From positions 744,001-808,000 of the forward strand of contig NZ_QDDR01000001.1 in assembly GCF_003075525.1 (NCBI RefSeq): 64,000 bases of DNA, read 5' to 3'. The stretch is from Pararhodobacter aggregans. Its GTDB lineage: Bacteria > Pseudomonadota > Alphaproteobacteria > Rhodobacterales > Rhodobacteraceae. The notes below the pieces were generated by a model that saw only the letters and a list, made by a program, of their open reading frames with translations, was not told the DNA's origin and searched no databases. Positions 47,210 to 57,930 of the stretch are shown here, piece after piece (position 1 is the stretch's first letter; every line of letters begins with the position of its first letter). The position numbers and the translations under genes were made by a program.

Positions 47210-48430
47210 ATGTTCGAACTCGCCATCATCGGTGCCTGGGCCGAATTCGCCGTGCGCTGGCTGCATGTCGTCACGGCCATGGCCTGGATCGGCTCGTCCT
47301 TCTATTTCATCGCGCTGGATCTGGGGCTGAACCGCAACATCCCCGGCCCCGCCGATGGCGAGGAATGGCAGGTCCACGGCGGCGGCTTCTACCATATCCA
47401 GAAGTATCTGGTGGCGCCCGAGCGGATGCCCGAGCATCTGGTCTGGTTCAAATGGGAAAGCTACATGACCTGGCTGTCGGGCTTCACCCTGATGGTGCTG
47501 GTCTATTACCTCGGCTCGGAATTCTACCTGATCGACCCCGAGGTGATGGCGCTGGCCCCTTGGCAGGCGATCGGGATCTCGCTGGCGTCCTTGGCCTTCG
47601 GCTGGCTGGTCTATGACCAGATCTGCAAGCGCTTCGTGAACTCGAACCAGACGCTGGTGATGATCGCGCTCTTCGTCGTGCTGGTCGGGATGAGCTATTT
47701 CTACACCTCGGTCTTCACCGGGCGGGCGGCGCTGATCCATCTGGGCGCCTGGACGGCGACGATCATGTCCGCCAACGTCTTCATGATCATCATCCCCAAC
47801 CAGAAGATCGTGGTGGCGGACCTGAAAGCGGGCCGGAAGCCCGATCCGAAATACGGCAAGATCGCCAAGCAGCGCTCGACGCACAACAATTACCTGACGC
47901 TGCCGGTGATCTTCCTGATGCTGTCGAACCATTACCCGCTGGCCTTCGCCACGGAATACACCTGGATCATCGCGTCCCTGGTGTTCCTGATGGGGGTGAC
48001 GATCCGGCATTACTTCAACTCGAACCACGCGCGCACCGGCAATCCGACCTGGACCTGGGCGGTGACGGCGGTGATCTTCATCGTCATCATGTGGCTGTCC
48101 GTGGCCCCGGCGCTGCGCGATCCCGAGGAGGTCGCGGCGCTGCCCCCCTCGGTCCAGCGCTTCGCCATGGCCGAGGATTTCCCCGAGGTCTATGACACCG
48201 TGACCGGCCGCTGTTCGATGTGCCATGCCGAATACCCGGCCTATCCCGGCATCAACTGGGCGCCCCACGGGCTCAGGCTGGAGACCGAGGCCGAAGTCGC
48301 CCGCGCGGCCCGGGTGATCTATCTGCAATCGGGCCGGGCGCACGCCATGCCACCGGCGAACCTGAGCTGGATGGAGCCGGAAGAGCGGGCGTTGATCGTT
48401 CGGTGGTATCAGGGTGTAACCGAAGGCTGA
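47210..48430 (+). CDS. puuD: Urate hydroxylase (membrane-bound, C-terminal cytochrome c)
   Basis: A 406-residue integral membrane enzyme that oxidises urate to 5-hydroxyisourate. It has about eight transmembrane helices from the N-terminus (RWLHVVTAMAWIGSSFYFIALD) to near residue 305, then a periplasmic cytochrome c domain with the heme motif CSMCH and a Met ligand region (AHAMPPANLSWM). Electrons should leave through the heme to the respiratory chain instead of to O2 and peroxide. The start follows GGGGAGAG. It is divergent from LysR and ends at a hairpin/T-run. Confidence 0.95.
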   Translation: MFELAIIGAWAEFAVRWLHVVTAMAWIGSSFYFIALDLGLNRNIPGPADGEEWQVHGGGFYHIQKYLVAPERMPEHLVWFKWESYMTWLSGFTLMVLVYYLGSEFYLIDPEVMALAPWQAIGISLASLAFGWLVYDQICKRFVNSNQTLVMIALFVVLVGMSYFYTSVFTGRAALIHLGAWTATIMSANVFMIIIPNQKIVVADLKAGRKPDPKYGKIAKQRSTHNNYLTLPVIFLMLSNHYPLAFATEYTWIIASLVFLMGVTIRHYFNSNHARTGNPTWTWAVTAVIFIVIMWLSVAPALRDPEEVAALPPSVQRFAMAEDFPEVYDTVTGRCSMCHAEYPAYPGINWAPHGLRLETEAEVARAARVIYLQSGRAHAMPPANLSWMEPEERALIVRWYQGVTEG

Positions 48431-48433
48431 GGC

Positions 48434-48552
48434 TTTTCGCCCTCGTTCCTCGGGCGACCAAGGGCGGGGGGCTGCCGCCCCCCGCGCCCCCCGCCCAAAG
48501 GGGGGCACGCCCCCCTTTGGAAACCCCGTGGATATTTCCAGAACAAAGATGG
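48434..48552 (+). repeat. Composite REP-like element, full-length copy after puuD
   Basis: TTTTCGCCCTCGT, CTCGGGCGACC, a GGGGGGCTGCCGCCCCCC hairpin, AAAGGGGGGCACGCCCCCCTTT, then CCCCGTGGATATTT and CCAGAACAAAGATG. Most of it recurs, inverted and almost unchanged, at 56017-56110. It begins four bases after the puuD stop. Confidence 0.75.
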
Positions 48553-48581: not shown

Positions 48582-48602
48582 ATGATTGACATGGGTAATC
48601 AT
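48582..48602. promoter_or_regulatory. Candidate MarR operator
   Basis: ATGATT and AATCAT form a dyad with nine bases between them and overlap TTGACA-like sequence, 34 bases before the MarR start codon. Size and place fit an autoregulatory MarR site controlling the regulator and the reductive dehalogenase-like gene. Confidence 0.5.
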
Positions 48603-48635
48603 TTCGGCTTGTCTTGCGGCAAGGGAGAGGACCGA

Positions 48636-49079
48636 ATGGGCGGCTATCGGTTGCATGGCAGGCTGGGGTTCCGCGTCTCGCGGCTGGCGCGGCTGATGCA
48701 GGCGCGCCACGAGGCGGCGCTGCCCGCGGGGCTGACGCGGTTGGGCGCGGCCGTGCTGGGGGGCGTGGGGGAAGAGGGGGTCGTGACGCCCTCGGACCTT
48801 GCCGCTTATGTCGGCATCACCCGGCCTGCCATGTCGCGGCTGCTCAGGGGGCTGGAGGCGAAGGGCTACGTCGCCCGCGCCGCCGCCGGGGGCGAGGACG
48901 GGCGGCAGACCGCCGTGGCGCTGACGCCCCGGGGGGTGGCGGTGCTGGCCGAGGCGCGGCGCGCGGGCGATGCCCTGCAGGCGCATTTCGCGGCCAAGCT
49001 CACGCCCGAGGAACTCTCCGCCCTGACCCGCGCCCTGGCCCGTCTGGCCGAGGGCGAGCCCGATCCCACCGATTTCTGA
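48636..49079 (+). CDS. MarR-family transcriptional regulator
   Basis: A 147-residue winged-helix regulator (LGFRVSRLARLMQARHEAALP, then TPSDLAAYVGITRPAMSRLLRGLEAKGYVARAAAGGEDGRQTAVALTPRG). MarR proteins are usually repressors released by aromatic or phenolic ligands. The start at 48636 follows GGGAGAGG. It lies nine bases upstream of the large reductive-dehalogenase-like gene, so the two share a transcript and a dyad operator. Confidence 0.91.
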   Translation: MGGYRLHGRLGFRVSRLARLMQARHEAALPAGLTRLGAAVLGGVGEEGVVTPSDLAAYVGITRPAMSRLLRGLEAKGYVARAAAGGEDGRQTAVALTPRGVAVLAEARRAGDALQAHFAAKLTPEELSALTRALARLAEGEPDPTDF

Positions 49080-49088
49080 GGTCCCGCG

Positions 49089-52000
49089 ATGCCGCTCTTT
49101 GCCCATGCCGACCGTCCCGTCCACCTCGGCCCCTTTCCGCTGGAGCGGTTGCGGCGCGGGGGCGGCGTGTCGCTGGAGGGCTTGCCCTTCTCGCAGCCGC
49201 TGCGCTTCGATCATCCCGACCCGCATTCGCTGGCCCATGCCATGGCGCGCTATCAGACCATGTTCGACACGGTGCGGCAGGGGCCGGTGGTGCATGAGGC
49301 GGCGGGCATCCCGGACGACCCGGTGGAGCGGTCGAACCACCTGAAGGCCGCGGGCTATTACTTCGACGCCTCGATGATGGGCGTGTGCCGGCTGGAGCCC
49401 GCCCACCACCTGCCCGAGCCGCATCGCAACCCGATGATCGACGCGCTACGGGAAGAGCTGGAGCGCGGCCAGCCCAAGACCCATGCCGCCGGGATCGACG
49501 CGATCTATGCCGATATTCTGGACGCCGCGCGCTCGCCGCACGGGCCGGTCACGCATCACCGCTTCGCCCTGCTGATCGCCGTGGGCTATACCCGCGATCC
49601 GGGGCAGGGCGAGCCCGGCTGCGACTGGCTGCACGGCACGCAGGCCGAGCGTGCGGCGCTTCTGGCCAACAACACGGCGGTGGTGCTGTCGTCCTATCTC
49701 AGGATGCTGGGGCACGAGGCGCGGGCGCATTCCATGTCGACCTCCGAGGTGGATCTGCCGCGGCTGGCGGTCTCGTCGGGGCTGGCCTTCGTGGACGGGG
49801 GCGCGGCGGTCAGCCCCTATCTGGGCACGCGCTACGGGTTGGCAGCGGTGACGACGACGCTGGAGCTGGCGCCCGATCAGCCGCTCGACGGCGACGGGCG
49901 CAGCGCGCGCAGCCACGGGCCGGGCTGGTGGAGCGGCGCCGCCGCCCCCCGGCGGGCGGCCACCGCCGAGCCTTTCGCCCATCGGGAATTCCGCAAGGGG
50001 CCGTACCCGTTCGAGCGGCTGAAACGGGTCGAGGAACCGACCACGCTGATCGACCATGCCCGTGTCCCGCGCTTCCCCAAACGGGCGGATTTCTTCGCCC
50101 GGGCGCTTTACGGCGACATGGGGAAATCGGTGCAGGAGGGGGCCAAGGGCGGGCGCTATGTCGCCAAGTCGCCGATCGGGGCCTGTGCGCGCCGGGCACT
50201 GGGTGCGTTGCTTTTGTTGCAGTTCGGGGATGCCCGCGGGCCGGAATCCGCCCCCGATCCCGAAAGAAATGCAGAGAATCTGAAAGCGGCGGGCTATTAC
50301 CTCAGCGCCGATGCGGTGGGGCTCTGCGCCGTGCCGGACTGGGCCTATTACTCGCATAACTCGGCGGGCGAGGCGCTTCAGCCCTACCACCGGAACGCCG
50401 TCAACATGCTCTTCGACCAGGGGCACGAGACGATGGAAGGCGCCTCGGGCGACGACTGGATCAGCGTCGCGCAGTCGATGCGGGCCTATCTCAGGTTCTC
50501 GCTCTTGGGCGGCGTGGTGGCGGAGCAGATCCGGCGGCTGGGCTATTCGGCGCGGGTGCATTCGGTGCTGGACGGCGACGTGCTGCAACCGCCGCTGCTG
50601 CTGCTGTCCGGCCTCGGCGAAGTCAGCCGGATCGGCGAGGTGATCCTGAACCCCTACCTCGGGCCGCGCCTGAAATCCGGCAGCGTCACCACCGACATGC
50701 CGATGGCCGCCGACAAGCCCATCGACTTCGGCCTCCAGACCTTCTGCAATGCCTGCAACAAATGCGCGCGGGAATGCCCCTCGGGCGCGATCACCGCCGG
50801 GCCGAAGCTGATGTACAACGGCTACGAGATCTGGAAATCCGACGCCGAGAAATGCGCCCGCTACCGGATCACCAACCAGGCGGGCGGCATGTGCGGGCGC
50901 TGCATGAAGACCTGCCCGTGGAACCTGCAGGGCCTCTTCGCCGAGGCGCCGTTCCGCTGGCTGGCGATGAACGCGCCGGGCTCGGCCAAGGCGCTGGCGG
51001 CGCTGGACGACCGGCTAGGGCGCGGGGCGATCAACCCGGTCAAGGCCTGGTGGTGGGACATCGAACTGGACAAGGCCGGCAAGCGGTACGTCCCCGCGGC
51101 GCAGACCAACCGGCGGGACCTCAACCGCGATCTGGACCTGAAGTATGAGGACCAGACGCTGGCGGTTTACCCGGCCGATGTCATGCCGCAGCCCTTCCCG
51201 ATCACCCAGCCCCTGAACCGCGAGGAGGGGATCGCCCGCTACCGCGCCATGCTGACGCCCGAGGAATACCGCAACCGGCTGGCGAGGGGCCAGACCGAGG
51301 GGCTGGTGCCGGGGACAAGGCCGCCCGAGGCGCCGCCGGTCTTCCCCGTGTTGATCGCCCGGCGCGAGGACCTCAGCGACGACACGATGCGGTTCGAACT
51401 GACCCGCGCCGATGGCCAGCCCTTGCCGCCCTTCGAGGCGGGGGCCCATGTCGCCCTGATGATCGCGCCGGAATATCAGCGCGATTATTCGCTGGCCGGG
51501 AACCCCGCCGACAGCACGAAATACGTCCTCGGCATCCAGAAAGAGGCCGCCGGGCGGGGCGGCTCGCTGCTGATCCACCGGGTGTTCCGCGAGGGGCGGC
51601 GGGTGTTCGTCACCCCGCCCTCGAACCTCTTCCCGCTGGACGAGGCCGCGCCCTTCACCCTGCTGATCGGCGGCGGGATCGGGGTCACGCCGATGCTGAC
51701 CATGGCTCACCGGCTGCACGCTCTGGGCCGGGATTTCCGCCTGCATTACCTTGCGCGCGGCACGGCGCCCTTCGGGGCCGAAATCGCCGCCGCGCCCTGG
51801 GCCGGGCACGCCCAGACCCATGTGAAGACCGACGGGCCGCGGGTGGACCTCGCCACGCTGATCCCGCCCTATACCCCGGGCGCCAAGCTCTACACCTGCG
51901 GCGGGGGCGGGTTCATGGACGGCGTTTTCGACACGGCCCGGGCGCAGGGCTGGCCCGAGGACGCGCTGTCCCGCGAATATTTCGCCGTGCCCGAGGCGCC

Positions 52001-52283
52001 CGACTGGGTGAACCACCCCTTCACCCTGCGCCTGACCCAATCGAGGCGCGACGTGCCCGTCGCCGCCGACCAATCGGCGACCGAGGCGCTGGCGGCGGTG
52101 GGCATCACGATCCCCACCAAATGCTCGGACGGGATCTGCGGCGTCTGCGCCGTCACGCACCAGACGCCCGAGGGGATCGAGCACCGCGACTATGTGCTGT
52201 CGGCGAAGGAGCGCGAAAACCGGGTGATCCTGTGCTGCTCGCGGGCCCGGGATGCGGCGGGGGTGCTGACACTCGATCTGTGA
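49089..52283 (+). CDS. Self-sufficient reductive dehalogenase-like fusion (RdhA + reductase + ferredoxin)
   Basis: A 1064-residue cytosolic multidomain redox enzyme with no Tat signal. Residues 1-290 are a degenerate RdhA-like module and 300-690 a second one: NHLKAAGYYF at 83 recurs as NLKAAGYYL at 397. Two 4Fe-4S motifs follow (C553, C556, C559, C563; C589 with C602, C605, C609). Residues ~745-1064 are a phthalate-dioxygenase-reductase-like part: flavin motif RDYSLAGNP at 798, NAD loop GGGIG at 861, and 2Fe-2S CSDGICGVC at 1012. The layout resembles catabolic dehalogenases such as BhbA, which use B12 and NAD(P)H to remove halogen from aromatics. Substrate and B12 use here are inference. Confidence 0.85.
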   Translation: MPLFAHADRPVHLGPFPLERLRRGGGVSLEGLPFSQPLRFDHPDPHSLAHAMARYQTMFDTVRQGPVVHEAAGIPDDPVERSNHLKAAGYYFDASMMGVCRLEPAHHLPEPHRNPMIDALREELERGQPKTHAAGIDAIYADILDAARSPHGPVTHHRFALLIAVGYTRDPGQGEPGCDWLHGTQAERAALLANNTAVVLSSYLRMLGHEARAHSMSTSEVDLPRLAVSSGLAFVDGGAAVSPYLGTRYGLAAVTTTLELAPDQPLDGDGRSARSHGPGWWSGAAAPRRAATAEPFAHREFRKGPYPFERLKRVEEPTTLIDHARVPRFPKRADFFARALYGDMGKSVQEGAKGGRYVAKSPIGACARRALGALLLLQFGDARGPESAPDPERNAENLKAAGYYLSADAVGLCAVPDWAYYSHNSAGEALQPYHRNAVNMLFDQGHETMEGASGDDWISVAQSMRAYLRFSLLGGVVAEQIRRLGYSARVHSVLDGDVLQPPLLLLSGLGEVSRIGEVILNPYLGPRLKSGSVTTDMPMAADKPIDFGLQTFCNACNKCARECPSGAITAGPKLMYNGYEIWKSDAEKCARYRITNQAGGMCGRCMKTCPWNLQGLFAEAPFRWLAMNAPGSAKALAALDDRLGRGAINPVKAWWWDIELDKAGKRYVPAAQTNRRDLNRDLDLKYEDQTLAVYPADVMPQPFPITQPLNREEGIARYRAMLTPEEYRNRLARGQTEGLVPGTRPPEAPPVFPVLIARREDLSDDTMRFELTRADGQPLPPFEAGAHVALMIAPEYQRDYSLAGNPADSTKYVLGIQKEAAGRGGSLLIHRVFREGRRVFVTPPSNLFPLDEAAPFTLLIGGGIGVTPMLTMAHRLHALGRDFRLHYLARGTAPFGAEIAAAPWAGHAQTHVKTDGPRVDLATLIPPYTPGAKLYTCGGGGFMDGVFDTARAQGWPEDALSREYFAVPEAPDWVNHPFTLRLTQSRRDVPVAADQSATEALAAVGITIPTKCSDGICGVCAVTHQTPEGIEHRDYVLSAKERENRVILCCSRARDAAGVLTLDL

Positions 52284-52364
52284 ACCCCTGCACAGGATGC
52301 TTGCGCCCGCGCGCCTTTACGGAAAGGCCACGCGCGCTTAGCTGAGGGCAAACAGGAGTTCTCA

Positions 52365-53396
52365 ATGAGCGACATTTCCCTCGGCCTCGACACCTTCGGC
52401 GACATCAGCACCGGCGCCGACGGCCAGCCGAAACCCATGGACCAGGTGCTGCGCGACGTGGTCGAGGAAGCGGCCTATGCCGACGAACTCGGCATCGACT
52501 TCATCGGCCTCGGCGAGCATCACCGCGACGATTTCGCCATCTCGGCGCCCGAGATCGTGCTGGGCGCCATCGCCGGCCGCACCAAGCGCATCAAGCTGGG
52601 GACGGCCGTCACGATCCTGTCGACCGATGACCCGGTGCGGGTGTTCCAGCGGTTCTCCACGCTGAACGCGGTGTCGAACGGGCGGGCCGAGCCGATCCTC
52701 GGCCGCGGCAGCTTTACCGAGAGCTATCCGCTCTTCGGCTATGACATGAACGATTACGACCAGCTCTTCGAGGAGAAGCTCGACATCTTCGCCCGCCTCC
52801 TGCGCGAGGAAAGCGTGACCTGGCAGGGCAAGACCCGCACGGCACTCAGGAACGCGACGGTCTATCCGCGCCTCGGCCAGCCGATGACCACCTGGGTCGG
52901 CGTCGGCGGCAGCCCGGAATCGGTGGTGCGCGTGGCCCGGCAGGATCTGCAGCTGATGCTGGCGATCATCGGCGGCGATCCCCTGCGCTTCAAACCTTAT
53001 GTCGAACTCTACCACCGCGCCGTCGCCCAGTTCGGGACCGAGGCGAAGCCGATCGGCGTGCATTCCCCGGGTTTCGTCGCCGCCACCGACGAGGAAGCGC
53101 GCGAAACGCTCTGGCCGCATTACCAGGCGATGTTCGGCCGCATCGGGCGCGAGCGCGGCTGGCCGCCCACGACCAAGGACCGCTATCTGGCCGAGGTCGC
53201 CCATGGCGCGCTCTTCGTCGGCTCGCCCGAGACGGTCGCCCGCAAGATCGTCCGCGCGGTCAAGGGCTTGGGTGTGCAGCGCTTCGATCTGAAATACACC
53301 ACCGGCCCCGTGCCGCATGAGCAGAACATGGAGGCGCTGCGGCTTTACGGTGAGCAGGTGATCCCCATGGTCAAGGACATGCTGTCCGAGGGCTGA
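52365..53396 (+). CDS. LLM-class flavin-dependent oxidoreductase
   Basis: A 343-residue luciferase-like (LLM) flavin oxidoreductase: EEAAYADELGIDFIGLGEHHRDDFAISAPEI is the N-terminal barrel signature, and LGRGSFTESYPLFGYDMNDY, GVGGSPESVVRVA and GVHSPGFVA mark the FMN monooxygenase-like subgroup. It may oxidise an organic compound with reduced flavin and O2. AACAGGAG precedes the ATG at 52365. It begins 81 bases after the dehalogenase-like gene on the same strand and may belong to the same unit. Confidence 0.9.
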   Translation: MSDISLGLDTFGDISTGADGQPKPMDQVLRDVVEEAAYADELGIDFIGLGEHHRDDFAISAPEIVLGAIAGRTKRIKLGTAVTILSTDDPVRVFQRFSTLNAVSNGRAEPILGRGSFTESYPLFGYDMNDYDQLFEEKLDIFARLLREESVTWQGKTRTALRNATVYPRLGQPMTTWVGVGGSPESVVRVARQDLQLMLAIIGGDPLRFKPYVELYHRAVAQFGTEAKPIGVHSPGFVAATDEEARETLWPHYQAMFGRIGRERGWPPTTKDRYLAEVAHGALFVGSPETVARKIVRAVKGLGVQRFDLKYTTGPVPHEQNMEALRLYGEQVIPMVKDMLSEG

Positions 53397-53900: not shown

Positions 53901-54998
53901 TCAGAACAGGCTGAGCTGATCGCCCGGCCGCGGCGGCGGGCGGAACTTGCCGCAATCGAGCGCGGGCAGGGTCTGGGCATAGCCCAGGCGGCGCCGCGCG
54001 GCGACGACCCGGGCGCGCAGCAGATCGGCATAGGGGCCTTCGCCCCGGAAGCGGCTGTGGAAATCGGGGTCATTGTCGCGCCCGCCCCGCATCTCGCGCA
54101 GCAGTTTCATGACCTTGCCCGCATGGTTGGGCCGGTGCCGCGCCAGCCAGTCCTGAAACAGCGGCGAGACCTCGCGCGGCAGCCTGAGCAGCGCGTACCA
54201 GGCCGTCTTCGCGCCCGCCTCGCGCCCGGCGTCCATCAGCGCCTCGATCTCGTGATCGGTCAGCCCCGGGATCACCGGCCCCATCATCAGCCGTACCGGC
54301 ACCCCGGCGGCCGAAAGCGCCCGGATCATCGCCAGCCGCCGGGCCGGCGAGGGCGCGCGCGGTTCCATCGCCCGGGCGAGCCCCGCGTCCAGCGTCGTCA
54401 CGCTGATCCCGACCTCGGTCAGCCCCTCGGCCGCCATCGGGCCCAGCAGGTCGATATCGCGCTCGATCAGCGCGCCGCGGGTGGTGATGCTGACCGGATG
54501 GCGCCAGTTCCACAGCACCTCCAGCACCGCGCGCGTCACGCGGTATTGCGCCTCGATCGGCTGCCAGGGATCGGTGTTGGTGCCCAGCCCCATCGGCCGC
54601 ACGACATAGGATTTGCGCGCCAGCTCCTTCTCCAGCACCCGGGCGGCATCGGGCCGGGCGATGAGCTTCGTCTCGAAATCGAGCCCCGGCGACAGGCCCA
54701 GATAGGCGTGGCTCGGCCGGGCGTAGCAATAGATGCAGCCATGCTCGCAACCGCGGTAGGAATTGACCGCCCGGTCGAAGCCCAGATCCGGCGACTGGTT
54801 CCAGGCGATGACCGAGCGCGGCCGCTCGACGCTGACCTCGCGGCGCCTGAGATGCTCCTCCTCGGGCAGGTCCCAGCCGTCATGCTCCCAGGCGCGGACC
54901 TCGCTGTCATACCGCGGCGCGGGCTGCGCCAGCGTGCCCCGCGCGGGCGCGCGCAAGGAGGGATCGGTCGGGGGCAGGGGGGGCGAGCGCGGCGGCAT
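53901..54998 (-). CDS. PA0069-family radical SAM protein (SplB-like)
   Basis: A 365-residue radical SAM enzyme of the PA0069 subgroup of COG1533, the group that includes spore photoproduct lyase. The cluster motif is NSYRGCEHGCIYCYARPSHAYLGLSPGLDFETK, with later TNTDPWQPIE, SITTRGALIERDIDLL and RLMMGPVIPGLTD. The C-terminus ends GDQLSLF. The substrate is not known; a link to DNA damage is supported by the LexA-type box 12-26 bases before its start codon. Confidence 0.92.
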   Translation of the reverse strand: MPPRSPPLPPTDPSLRAPARGTLAQPAPRYDSEVRAWEHDGWDLPEEEHLRRREVSVERPRSVIAWNQSPDLGFDRAVNSYRGCEHGCIYCYARPSHAYLGLSPGLDFETKLIARPDAARVLEKELARKSYVVRPMGLGTNTDPWQPIEAQYRVTRAVLEVLWNWRHPVSITTRGALIERDIDLLGPMAAEGLTEVGISVTTLDAGLARAMEPRAPSPARRLAMIRALSAAGVPVRLMMGPVIPGLTDHEIEALMDAGREAGAKTAWYALLRLPREVSPLFQDWLARHRPNHAGKVMKLLREMRGGRDNDPDFHSRFRGEGPYADLLRARVVAARRRLGYAQTLPALDCGKFRPPPRPGDQLSLF

Positions 54999-55155: not shown

Positions 55156-55860
55156 ATGGCCGAGGACGACGACATCATCCTGTCCGAACTGAACGACGAG
55201 GAACTCGTCGCCCAGATGATGGACGACCTCTACGACGGCTTGAAGGACGAGATCGAGGAAGGCGTCAACCTGCTGCTGGAACGCGGCTGGACGCCCTATG
55301 ACGTGCTGACCAAGGCGCTGGTCGCCGGCATGACCATCGTCGGCCACGACTTCCGCGACGGGATCCTCTTCGTCCCCGAGGTGCTGCTGGCGGCGAACGC
55401 GATGAAGGCGGGCATGTCGATCCTGAAGCCGCTGCTGGCCGAAACCGGCGCGCCCCGCATGGGTAAGATGGTGATCGGCACCGTCAAGGGCGACATCCAT
55501 GACATCGGCAAGAACCTCGTCGGCATGATGATGGAGGGCGCGGGCTTCGAGGTGGTGGATCTGGGCATCAACAACCCGGTCGAGAAATACCTCGATACCG
55601 CGGTGGCCGAAGGCGCCGACATCATCGGCATGTCGGCCCTGCTGACCACGACGATGCCCTATATGAAGGTGGTCATCGACACCCTGAAAGAACGCGGCAT
55701 GCGCGAGGAATACATCATCCTCGTCGGCGGCGCGCCCCTGAACGAGGAATTCGGCCGCGCCATCGGCGCCGACGCCTATTGCCGGGATGCGGCGGTGGCG
55801 GTCGAGACCGCCAAGGCGCTGGTCGCGCGCAAACACAATCAGGGCGCCGCGCGCGCCTGA
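55156..55860 (+). CDS. Cobalamin-binding corrinoid protein
   Basis: A 234-residue corrinoid shuttle protein. Residues about 10-95 are the helical cap (EEGVNLLLERGWTPYDVLTKAL...FVPEVLLAANAMKAGMSIL). The rest is the B12-binding Rossmann domain with the cobalt-ligand motif KGDIHDIGKNLVG (D-x-H-x-x-G) and SALLTTTMPYMKVVID. Such proteins carry methyl groups between a substrate-specific methyltransferase and tetrahydrofolate or homocysteine. The cognate methyltransferase is not adjacent. A split methionine synthase or a one-carbon demethylation system are both plausible. Confidence 0.92.
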   Translation: MAEDDDIILSELNDEELVAQMMDDLYDGLKDEIEEGVNLLLERGWTPYDVLTKALVAGMTIVGHDFRDGILFVPEVLLAANAMKAGMSILKPLLAETGAPRMGKMVIGTVKGDIHDIGKNLVGMMMEGAGFEVVDLGINNPVEKYLDTAVAEGADIIGMSALLTTTMPYMKVVIDTLKERGMREEYIILVGGAPLNEEFGRAIGADAYCRDAAVAVETAKALVARKHNQGAARA

Positions 55861-56016: not shown

Positions 56017-56110
56017 CATCTTTGTTCTCCAAATATCCACGGGGTTTCCAAAGGGGGGCGTGCCCCCCTTTGGGCAGGGGGTGCGGGGGGCGGCAGCCCC
56101 CCGCCCTTTG
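56017..56110 (-). repeat. Composite REP-like element, inverted near-copy of the 48.5-kb element
   Basis: Starts CATCTTTGTTCTCCAAATATCC, then ACGGGGTTTCC, AAAGGGGGGCGTGCCCCCCTTT, a GGGGGTGCGGGGGGCGGC hairpin and CAGCCCCCCGCCCTTT. Over about 90 bases it matches the reverse complement of 48434-48552 with few differences. Confidence 0.8.
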
Positions 56111-56250
56111 CGTCCACTGGGGGCGGCAGCCCCCCGCCCTTTGCGTCCACTGGGGGCGGCAGCCCCCCGCCCTTTGCGTCCACTTGGGGCGACAGCCCCC
56201 CGCCCTTCGCGTCCACTGGGGGCGGCAGCGCCCCCGCGTTTACGTCCTCC
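56086..56250. repeat. Tandem array of five 33-bp units
   Basis: The unit is GGGGGCGGCAGCCCCCC then GCCCTTTGCGTCCACT. Units 1-3 (56086, 56119, 56152) are identical; unit 4 (56185) has three changes, unit 5 (56218) is more diverged, and a broken sixth follows to about 56275. Each unit contains a G/C hairpin. The unit begins with the hairpin of the preceding REP-like element, so the array looks like local amplification of its 3' end. It ends at the flotillin stop codon. This array and the repeat before it fill the 414-base gap. Confidence 0.9.
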
Positions 56251-56274
56251 GGGGGCGAGCAACCCCCGCTTCCC

Positions 56275-57930
56275 TCACTCGGTCCCGGCCGCCGGGGGCA
56301 CGGGTCTGGCGCCCAGTGCGCCCTCTGCCATCCCTGCCAGACCGCCCTCCATCGACAGGCCCAGCTCCTCGCCGAGCTTGCGCAGCGCGGGCATCTGCAC
56401 CGCCATGCCCATGATCGAATCGAGTGCCTGATTGACCACCGGCTTCTCGCCCGGCGCCCCGCCAGCGCCGCCGCCGCCACCGCCCGGGCCGCCCAGCCCG
56501 CCGACGTAATGGATCTTGATCGAGTCGATCTTCTCCACCGGCTTCACCATCTGCGCCATGATCGAGGGGAAGGCCTCGAGCCGCGCCAGATCCACCTTCA
56601 TCGCCACGATCGCGGGCGAAATCGCGTTGTCGGCCTCGGTGATCGCCCGCTTGCCCTCGGCTTCGGCCAGCATGTCGGTCTTCTTGGCCTCGGCGCGGAT
56701 GGCGATGGCGTCGGCCTCGGCGCGGGCTTCCTCGCGCCGCGCCTCGGCCCGGTCCTGGGCCGCGTCCCGCTCGGCCTGGGCGGCCAGGCGGATGCGGGTC
56801 GCTTCGCGCTCGGCCTCGCGCTGGGCGTCGATCAGGGCGATCTGCTTGACGCGCTCGGCCTCGGCCACCTGCCGCGCCGTCGTCACCGCCTCCATCGCCT
56901 TGGTCGCTTCGGCCCGGGCCAGATCGGCCGAGGCGCGGGCGCGGCTTTCCTCCTCGGATTTCTTGGCGACGATGATCTGGCGCTCCTGATCGGCCACTTC
57001 CAGCTCGCGCTCCTTGGCGATCTCGGCCTCGCGCAGCGTGCGCTCGCGCTCGATCTCGCGCGAGCGGATGGCCTCTTCACGGGCGATCCGGGCGCGCTCG
57101 CGTTCGCGGGCCGAATTCTCGTTGTCGGTGGCGATCTGCGCCTCCTGTGCGGCCTTCAGCGTGGCGATGCGCTGCGCCTGCTCGATGCGGGCCTGTTCCT
57201 CGTCCTGCTCGATCAGCAGCTTGTGGCGCTGCGCCTCCATCGCCGCCCGGCGGACCGAGACCTCGGCGTCGGCGTCGATCTGGGCGCGTTCCTTCTTCGA
57301 GGTGGCGATCACCTCGGCCAGCCGCCGCATGCCCACCGCGTTGAAGGCGTTGTTCTCATCAAGCGCTGCGAACGGGGTCTGGTCCAGCGCCGTCAGCGAG
57401 ACGGATTCCAGCGACAGCCCGTTCTTCAGCAGATCCTCGGACACCGCATTCTGCACTTCCTGCACGAAATCGGCCCGGCTTTCGTGCAATTCGTCCATGG
57501 TCATCCGGGCCGCGACCGAGCGCAACCCGTCGATCAGCTTGCCCTCGATCATCTCGCGCAGCTGGTCGACGTCAAAGGTCCGCGCGCCCAATGTCTGGGC
57601 GGCGCGGGCGATCCCCTCGTCGGTGGGGCTGACCGAGACGTAGAATTCCACGCCGACATCGACCCGCATCCGGTCCTTGGTGATGAGCGCCGCCTCGTTG
57701 TCGCGCTTCACCTCCAGCCGCAGGGTCTTCATGTTGACCCGGTTCACCTCGTGCAGCAGCGGGATGACGATGGTGCCGCCATCCATGATGACCCGTTTGC
57801 CGCCCGCCCCGGTCTTGACCAGGCTCACCTCGCGCGTGGCGCGGCGGTAGAGGCGGCCCAGGACCAGGGCCAGCAGGATGAGAAAGACCAGAACAGCGCC
57901 GACCAGCGTCAGCAGGGATGTGAAAGCCAT
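56275..57930 (-). CDS. Flotillin-family membrane scaffold protein
   Basis: A 551-residue SPFH protein of the flotillin/YqiK group. One N-terminal transmembrane helix (LLTLVGAVLVFLILLALVLG) is followed by the SPFH domain to about residue 200. A very long charged coiled coil follows, rich in EAERERAR-type repeats, with the flotillin-typical AEAEGKRAITEADNAISP. A Gly-rich hinge (GGPGGGGGGAGG) lies near residue 480. Flotillins organise membrane microdomains. The upstream YqiJ-like gene, 27 bases away, is its usual partner. Confidence 0.93.
   Translation of the reverse strand: MAFTSLLTLVGAVLVFLILLALVLGRLYRRATREVSLVKTGAGGKRVIMDGGTIVIPLLHEVNRVNMKTLRLEVKRDNEAALITKDRMRVDVGVEFYVSVSPTDEGIARAAQTLGARTFDVDQLREMIEGKLIDGLRSVAARMTMDELHESRADFVQEVQNAVSEDLLKNGLSLESVSLTALDQTPFAALDENNAFNAVGMRRLAEVIATSKKERAQIDADAEVSVRRAAMEAQRHKLLIEQDEEQARIEQAQRIATLKAAQEAQIATDNENSARERERARIAREEAIRSREIERERTLREAEIAKERELEVADQERQIIVAKKSEEESRARASADLARAEATKAMEAVTTARQVAEAERVKQIALIDAQREAEREATRIRLAAQAERDAAQDRAEARREEARAEADAIAIRAEAKKTDMLAEAEGKRAITEADNAISPAIVAMKVDLARLEAFPSIMAQMVKPVEKIDSIKIHYVGGLGGPGGGGGGAGGAPGEKPVVNQALDSIMGMAVQMPALRKLGEELGLSMEGGLAGMAEGALGARPVPPAAGTE

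Follow-up and report, generated by a model that had tools for sequence, protein, structure and literature searches.

What does the predicted reductive dehalogenase of Pararhodobacter aggregans act on, and what controls its gene? We addressed this in a stretch of 64,000 nucleotides (hereafter, the window; assembly GCF_003075525.1, contig NZ_QDDR01000001.1, positions 744,001 to 808,000), in which genes for a MarR regulator, a 1064-residue dehalogenase and an LLM-class monooxygenase follow one another on the plus strand. A first-pass annotation had described the three as a MarR-controlled, self-sufficient and little-described reductive dehalogenase-like system. Judged from protein and DNA comparisons, it is likely that they form a unit which MarR regulates and which removes halogens reductively from ortho-halogenated phenolic compounds, aerobically and at the expense of NAD(P)H. 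The enzyme is of a known kind, and the link between MarR and a candidate operator is the most useful new point. This enzyme class is attractive for the removal of brominated pollutants in air; a MarR regulator with a defined, apparently single-target candidate operator offers a direct route to the natural inducer and so, probably, to the substrate.

The domain searches confirmed that all parts proposed by the first-pass annotation lie in one chain, namely, a duplicated RdhA part, two 4Fe-4S sites, a flavin mononucleotide (FMN)/NAD(P)H reductase and a 2Fe-2S site. The protein scored 197.6 bits with the NCBIfam reductive dehalogenase model TIGR02486 (cut-off, 160.35). Residues 1-105 and 156-732 matched NpRdhA of Nitratireductor pacificus (E 1.7e-168 for the whole), and residues 751-1061 matched phthalate dioxygenase reductase (2pia, E 2.3e-53), with a Pfam Fer2 match in this C-terminal module (E 7e-07). 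The tandem modules are likewise borne out: residues 75-270 align with 385-562 (E 7e-15, 29% identity), and the N-terminal module is a diverged, vestigial copy of the catalytic second one. An AlphaFold2 model of the protein (27 rows; mean pLDDT 78.9, pTM 0.80) was weaker around residues 448-454, 510-530 and 590-630. Its 14 best solved structures were all NpRdhA chains, with TM scores over the target of 0.89-0.90; phthalate dioxygenase reductase and self-sufficient P450s came next.

For comparison, 121 homologous loci (labeled L and a number) were gathered from 39 genome contigs, 76 genomes of the host's family, 5 plasmids and the window; three partial proteins were dropped, and the remaining 118 full-length dehalogenases fell into 109 groups at 95% identity. 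The NpRdhA residues Tyr426, Lys488 and Arg552, mapped by hand on the sequence alignment, correspond to Tyr467, Lys529 and Arg593 of the window protein, and these are invariant in all 118. Equally invariant are the cysteines of the 4Fe-4S sites (C553, 556, 559, 563 and C589, 602, 605, 609) and of the 2Fe-2S site (C1012, C1017, C1020, C1049), as well as R798 and S801, which we take to be the FMN-site motif. As the first-pass annotation had held, there is no sign of a Tat signal; the motif RRxFxK was found in the first 60 residues of none of the 118 proteins (a motif check rather than a signal-peptide program). Residues 104-155, mostly absent from NpRdhA, keep a length of 51-52 residues throughout and may be the insert that the available text of PMC10463259 describes for RdhA-PDOR fusions.

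The window enzyme belongs to a type already known, the self-sufficient catabolic RdhA-reductase fusion, of which BhbA was the first described and JtRdhA of Jhaorihella thermophila has been assayed; the accessible parts of PMC10463259 give the same architecture for both. According to these, JtRdhA (WP_104007082) uses NADPH to dehalogenate brominated and iodinated phenols with or without air, is only inhibited by the chlorinated phenols tested, and enables Escherichia coli W to grow on 3-bromo-4-hydroxyphenylacetate. As described there, it shares with the window protein the RdhA-PDOR fusion without a Tat signal, the duplicated cobalamin domain, two 4Fe-4S sites, FMN, 2Fe-2S, the Tyr/Lys/Arg catalytic set and the RdhA-domain insert absent from NpRdhA, a likeness drawn by description. 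A cytosolic, catabolic and self-sufficient rather than respiratory enzyme is thus well supported by its anatomy and by these parallels, and the label little-described does not hold, as JtRdhA has been purified and assayed, BhbA shares the architecture, and many genomes of the host's family carry such a gene. BhbA itself (Comamonas sp. 7D-2 plasmid pBHB, L051) aligns with the window protein over its full length at 50% identity and sits on a separate tree branch. Its gene adjoins those for a protocatechuate 4,5-dioxygenase and a tricarboxylate-transporter binding protein, whereas that of the window adjoins marR. The end product of BhbA is 4-hydroxybenzoate, and putative homologues of bhbA occur widely among Roseobacter-clade bacteria, according to the portion of PMC13101508 at hand. 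A homologue in Nitratireductor OM-1 adjoins pobA, along with genes that carry extradiol and protocatechuate dioxygenase annotations. NpRdhA (4ras, 6zxu, 6zxx, 6zy0, 6zy1) has the vestigial and catalytic modules and the same three catalytic residues, with 40% identity to the RdhA part of the window protein in a structure alignment (TM 0.90), but it has no fused reductase and lacks most of window residues 106-155.

Taken together, the protein is probably a B12-dependent enzyme that removes bromine or iodine, perhaps chlorine, from phenol-like compounds with NAD(P)H. By homology to JtRdhA, NAD(P)H would reduce FMN in the C-terminal reductase; from there the 2Fe-2S cluster, followed by the two 4Fe-4S clusters, would relay the electrons to the cobalamin of the second RdhA module. 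The Tyr467/Lys529 pair would supply a proton as the halide leaves, and the dehalogenated phenol could enter ordinary aromatic catabolism. MarR, bound to a 21-bp palindrome 5' of its own gene, would keep the unit repressed in the absence of its ligand, a halophenol or a related aromatic compound, and the LLM enzyme might, for example, oxidize the product. The comparisons themselves established the order and family of the genes, the predicted fold, the conservation of catalytic and cluster residues, and a DNA site conserved beside marR; cobalamin binding, the substrate class, the MarR ligand and the role of MarR as a repressor are our inferences.

Of 198 genomes sampled in the host's family, 77, each from another genus and the host's own among them, matched nearly the whole protein (the other 76 are those entered above); any match was found in 147, many to the reductase part only. 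Judging by this frequency, aerobic reductive dehalogenation appears to be commonplace in the family. Within the genus, the distribution is patchy: 6 of 18 genomes matched at E 1e-100 (the host's own, one each at 96% and 86%, and a further three at 50-55% that include one partial match). The 39 loci from genome contigs are, by their titles, mostly from Burkholderiales (many Limnohabitans), the rest being alphaproteobacterial or unplaced. Among 82 full-length proteins, a tree built by a quick method (SH-aLRT support only, rooted at the midpoint) placed the window protein and its 96% and 86% relatives, the latter from Pararhodobacter zhoushanensis, in a clade of 37 that also includes Rhizobiaceae and Burkholderiales. 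A second large clade held 42 proteins, Aminobacter fell in neither, and BhbA and its Nitratireductor relative stood apart. FastTree with all 118 returned the same two clades, with sizes of 37 and 78.

The regulator (residues translated from 48642) scored 43.6 bits with MarR_2 (cut-off, 27) and also matched MarR (E 3.8e-08). Its gene lies nine bases upstream of the dehalogenase gene, as the first-pass annotation had reported. A homologous marR adjoins the dehalogenase gene in 15 of the 118 loci, in both large clades; these 15 form 14 groups at 95% identity, the window's clade contributing five loci, the second clade nine and Aminobacter the remaining one. In 13 loci marR lies upstream on the same strand at gaps of 3 to 60 bases (278 in L004), and in two (L054, L125) it is adjacent and divergent; in one further locus (L113) it is 2.9 kb away. 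The subfamily also gave a partial downstream match in L052 and a weak match in L059 (E 0.00028).

The upstream regions of eight MarR loci were found to share a 21-bp imperfect palindrome, which had first been picked in two loci for being palindromic, and these eight were used to build a search matrix. The candidate site was present in 14 of the 15 marR-adjacent loci, that is, the window and 13 others. Six of these lay outside the matrix, and all six (L110, 28.6 bits; L136, 26.8; L131, 24.0; L115, 21.3; L125, 20.2; L129, 19.2) outscored every one of 1,300 control segments of 950 bp taken from the same loci (maximum, 18.5; 99% point, 14.5). Eight positions are invariant across the 14 sites (T2, T5, T6, G7, G13, A16, A17, A20). 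In the host's own genome, a search with the 19-bp core allowing up to three mismatches returned one exact match, the window locus, and one other with three mismatches; with a single exact match, the regulator appears to be local. Over the 14 sites, 91 of 140 pairs are symmetric, compared with a mean of 2.7 of 10 for random 21-mers, although the L125 site has only 3 of 10. Row-shuffling left the symmetry unchanged (mean, 91.1); compensating change is therefore not indicated, and the symmetry lies in the shared consensus. The idea that the site is merely conserved MarR coding sequence was set aside, as its distance to the N-terminal MarR motif varies from 16 to 100 nucleotides and over all three frames, 10 of the 14 distances falling in one frame (frames worked out by hand). 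A promoter reading of TTGACA was dropped after a scan gave no promoter-like site.

The points that weigh against a MarR-regulated, halophenol-dehalogenating unit concern both its control and its substrate. As for control, two loci in which no marR was detected, L119 (21.6 bits) and L058 (20.0), also exceed the control maximum, while L113, with its distant marR, has no site (6.1) and L054 only a weak one (13.6, below the 99% control point). The candidate operator ends 16 nucleotides before the conserved N-terminal MarR motif in five of the 14 loci, so TTGACA may not simply be readable as a −35 box, and the promoter scan found no sigma-70-type site. One could suppose that the dehalogenase gene is outside MarR control and that adjacency and shared site reflect only autoregulation or shared ancestry; consistent with this, 101 of the 118 loci have no MarR-subfamily match within 4 kb (102 if the weak L059 match is discounted). 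We consider this unlikely. Two same-strand genes with a gap of nine bases are normally cotranscribed. In addition, wherever marR lies upstream in the same orientation (13 loci), the site is present, and five of these loci did not enter the matrix. MarR and dehalogenase identities also correlate (r 0.73, permutation p 0.0002; 16 loci including L113, MarR frames read stop to stop and untrimmed), with shared host descent still contained in that figure. MarR control, as the first-pass annotation proposed it, is plausible and gains comparative DNA support from the conserved site. There is a precedent in Rdh2R of Dehalococcoides mccartyi, a MarR-type regulator with negative control of a reductive dehalogenase gene (PMC6299228 and PMC7755780, in the parts available). 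That enzyme is respiratory and from an anaerobe, and the two regulators are likened by description. Among the literature matches listed, judged by titles, abstract openings and counts and with most subscription papers out of reach, there was no study of MarR control of the fused catabolic type; in the accessible text of PMC10463259 the only match to "MarR" is the word "marred". More tentatively, the MarR subfamily could be a dedicated sensor of natural halophenols in aerobes that, with the 21-bp palindrome, governs self-sufficient dehalogenases of either large clade where the host is an alphaproteobacterium, the LLM enzyme adding a further halophenol-pathway step in the window's close relatives; this is possible rather than likely.

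As for the substrate, its assignment rests on relatives, and those measured are 40% (NpRdhA) and 50% (BhbA) identical. No aromatic-catabolism gene was seen among the nine window proteins scanned with Pfam, and the LLM gene occurs within 6 kb of the dehalogenase gene in only 3 of the 118 loci (the window, L002 and L020). Although TIGR02486 bears out the RdhA assignment of the first-pass annotation, Pfam PF13486 reports neither the protein at E 0.1 nor its locus in a whole-genome search. An RdhA-fold enzyme whose natural substrate is not a halophenol, for example, one catalyzing another B12-dependent reduction with dehalogenation as a side activity, would fit how common the gene is in the family and how varied its neighbors are (MTTB methyltransferase, DBI_PRT, HPPD-like, Rieske and ring-hydroxylating oxygenases, SDR, TctC). 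QueG, a relative, is to our knowledge not a dehalogenase. The invariance of the catalytic Tyr/Lys/Arg set nevertheless makes such an enzyme improbable. In addition, relatives of known function act on halophenols (PMC10463259, available text), and bromophenols from human and biological sources are abundant in marine ecosystems (PMC13101508, available text). A respiratory enzyme serving organohalide respiration would share the superfamily and the score above the NCBIfam cut-off, but with the Tat motif missing, the reductase fused and the module duplicated, it has almost no probability. The first-pass annotation had also noted the lack of an RdhB anchor, and the gaps of 9 bases to marR and 81 to the LLM gene leave no room for an adjacent rdhB (the rest of the genome was not searched for it). 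The respiratory role was ruled out on the missing motif and this lack of room.

Table 1. Features of the dehalogenase locus and its flanks (window positions)
Feature	Position	Strand	Remarks
Candidate MarR operator ATGATTGACATGGGTAATCAT	48582..48602	+	21-bp imperfect palindrome, 7/10 pairs symmetric
MarR-family regulator, likely 147 amino acids	48636..49079	+	MarR_2 E 3.2e-11; start codon inferred from sequence
Self-sufficient catabolic reductive dehalogenase, 1064 amino acids	49089..52283	+	vestigial RdhA, catalytic RdhA, 2x 4Fe-4S, reductase module
LLM-class flavin monooxygenase, Atu2307/SP_0267 family (TIGR03858), 343 amino acids	52365..53396	+	profile matches
Urate_ox_N protein, upstream of marR	47210-48430		Pfam
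PA0069-family radical SAM protein, downstream of LLM gene	53901-54998	minus	

The ATG at 48636, which stands behind the purine-rich GGGAGAGGA, is the more likely MarR start; the earlier choice, 48582, coincides with the first base of the candidate operator. Just upstream of that operator sits one copy (48500-48537) of a 38-nucleotide G+C-rich repeat that recurs at 56031-56068 and has 17 copies in the host's genome (up to three mismatches). The Urate_ox_N protein (E 1.8e-131) has a possible C-terminal cytochrome c domain (E 0.031, below cut-off).

The downstream flavin oxidoreductase of the first-pass annotation proved to be an LLM-class protein (Bac_luciferase E 5.4e-50; TIGR03858, 490.9 bits against a cut-off of 462.25). 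It matches 2i7g of the Atu2307 family (E 4.2e-93), an entry named only "Monooxygenase" in which no link to dehalogenation was seen. The LLM gene also stands beside the dehalogenase gene in L141, which comes from a further genome of this genus (L140 and L002 are one and the same DNA), and this adjacency is restricted to the window and its closest relatives. All three genes are present in L020, the locus of Pararhodobacter zhoushanensis. Neighbors were clustered over 82 loci and laid out for 40, with more detail for 20, and Pfam annotation was added for 20 neighbor proteins. Largest among the clusters was an SDR-type one (23 loci), followed by a TctC-type and an unannotated one (13 each) and an aldehyde dehydrogenase-type one (11), the last named after annotated plasmid members. 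The neighborhood was given up as a guide to the substrate, with no shared pathway seen and most neighbors lacking annotation. Near the dehalogenase gene, L003 (Pfam) and L004 and L079 (by clustering) have genes of the MTTB methyltransferase type, and L057 (4825-5862, Pfam) and L058 (13440-14477, same cluster) have a DBI_PRT gene, presumably CobT-type.

The host genome encodes CobN (1014.5 bits over two pieces; cut-off, 822.05) and PobA (681.8; cut-off, 538.7), each with one in-frame stop codon reported inside the match, and QueG is present. As predicted genes, these are compatible with cobalamin synthesis and use of 4-hydroxybenzoate. A second cytosolic-looking reductive dehalogenase-like protein of 391 residues, without a reductase module, is encoded elsewhere in the genome (G000:C3, L001:1132-2307, minus strand), and PF13486 reports its locus barely above cut-off (24.6 against 24.3 bits). 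Its 4Fe-4S motifs, at residues 283-294 and 337-345, coincide in position with those of Ros_A3X954, an enzyme that debrominates 2,6-dibromophenol (PMC13101508, as far as its text is available). Farther along the window, 55156-55860 encodes a corrinoid protein near MtgC/MtbC, with B12-binding domains and scores under the curated cut-offs of those models; 3' of its gene, a G+C-rich region (about 56060-56350) reads in one frame as a repeated GAAAPRPLRPL-like unit.

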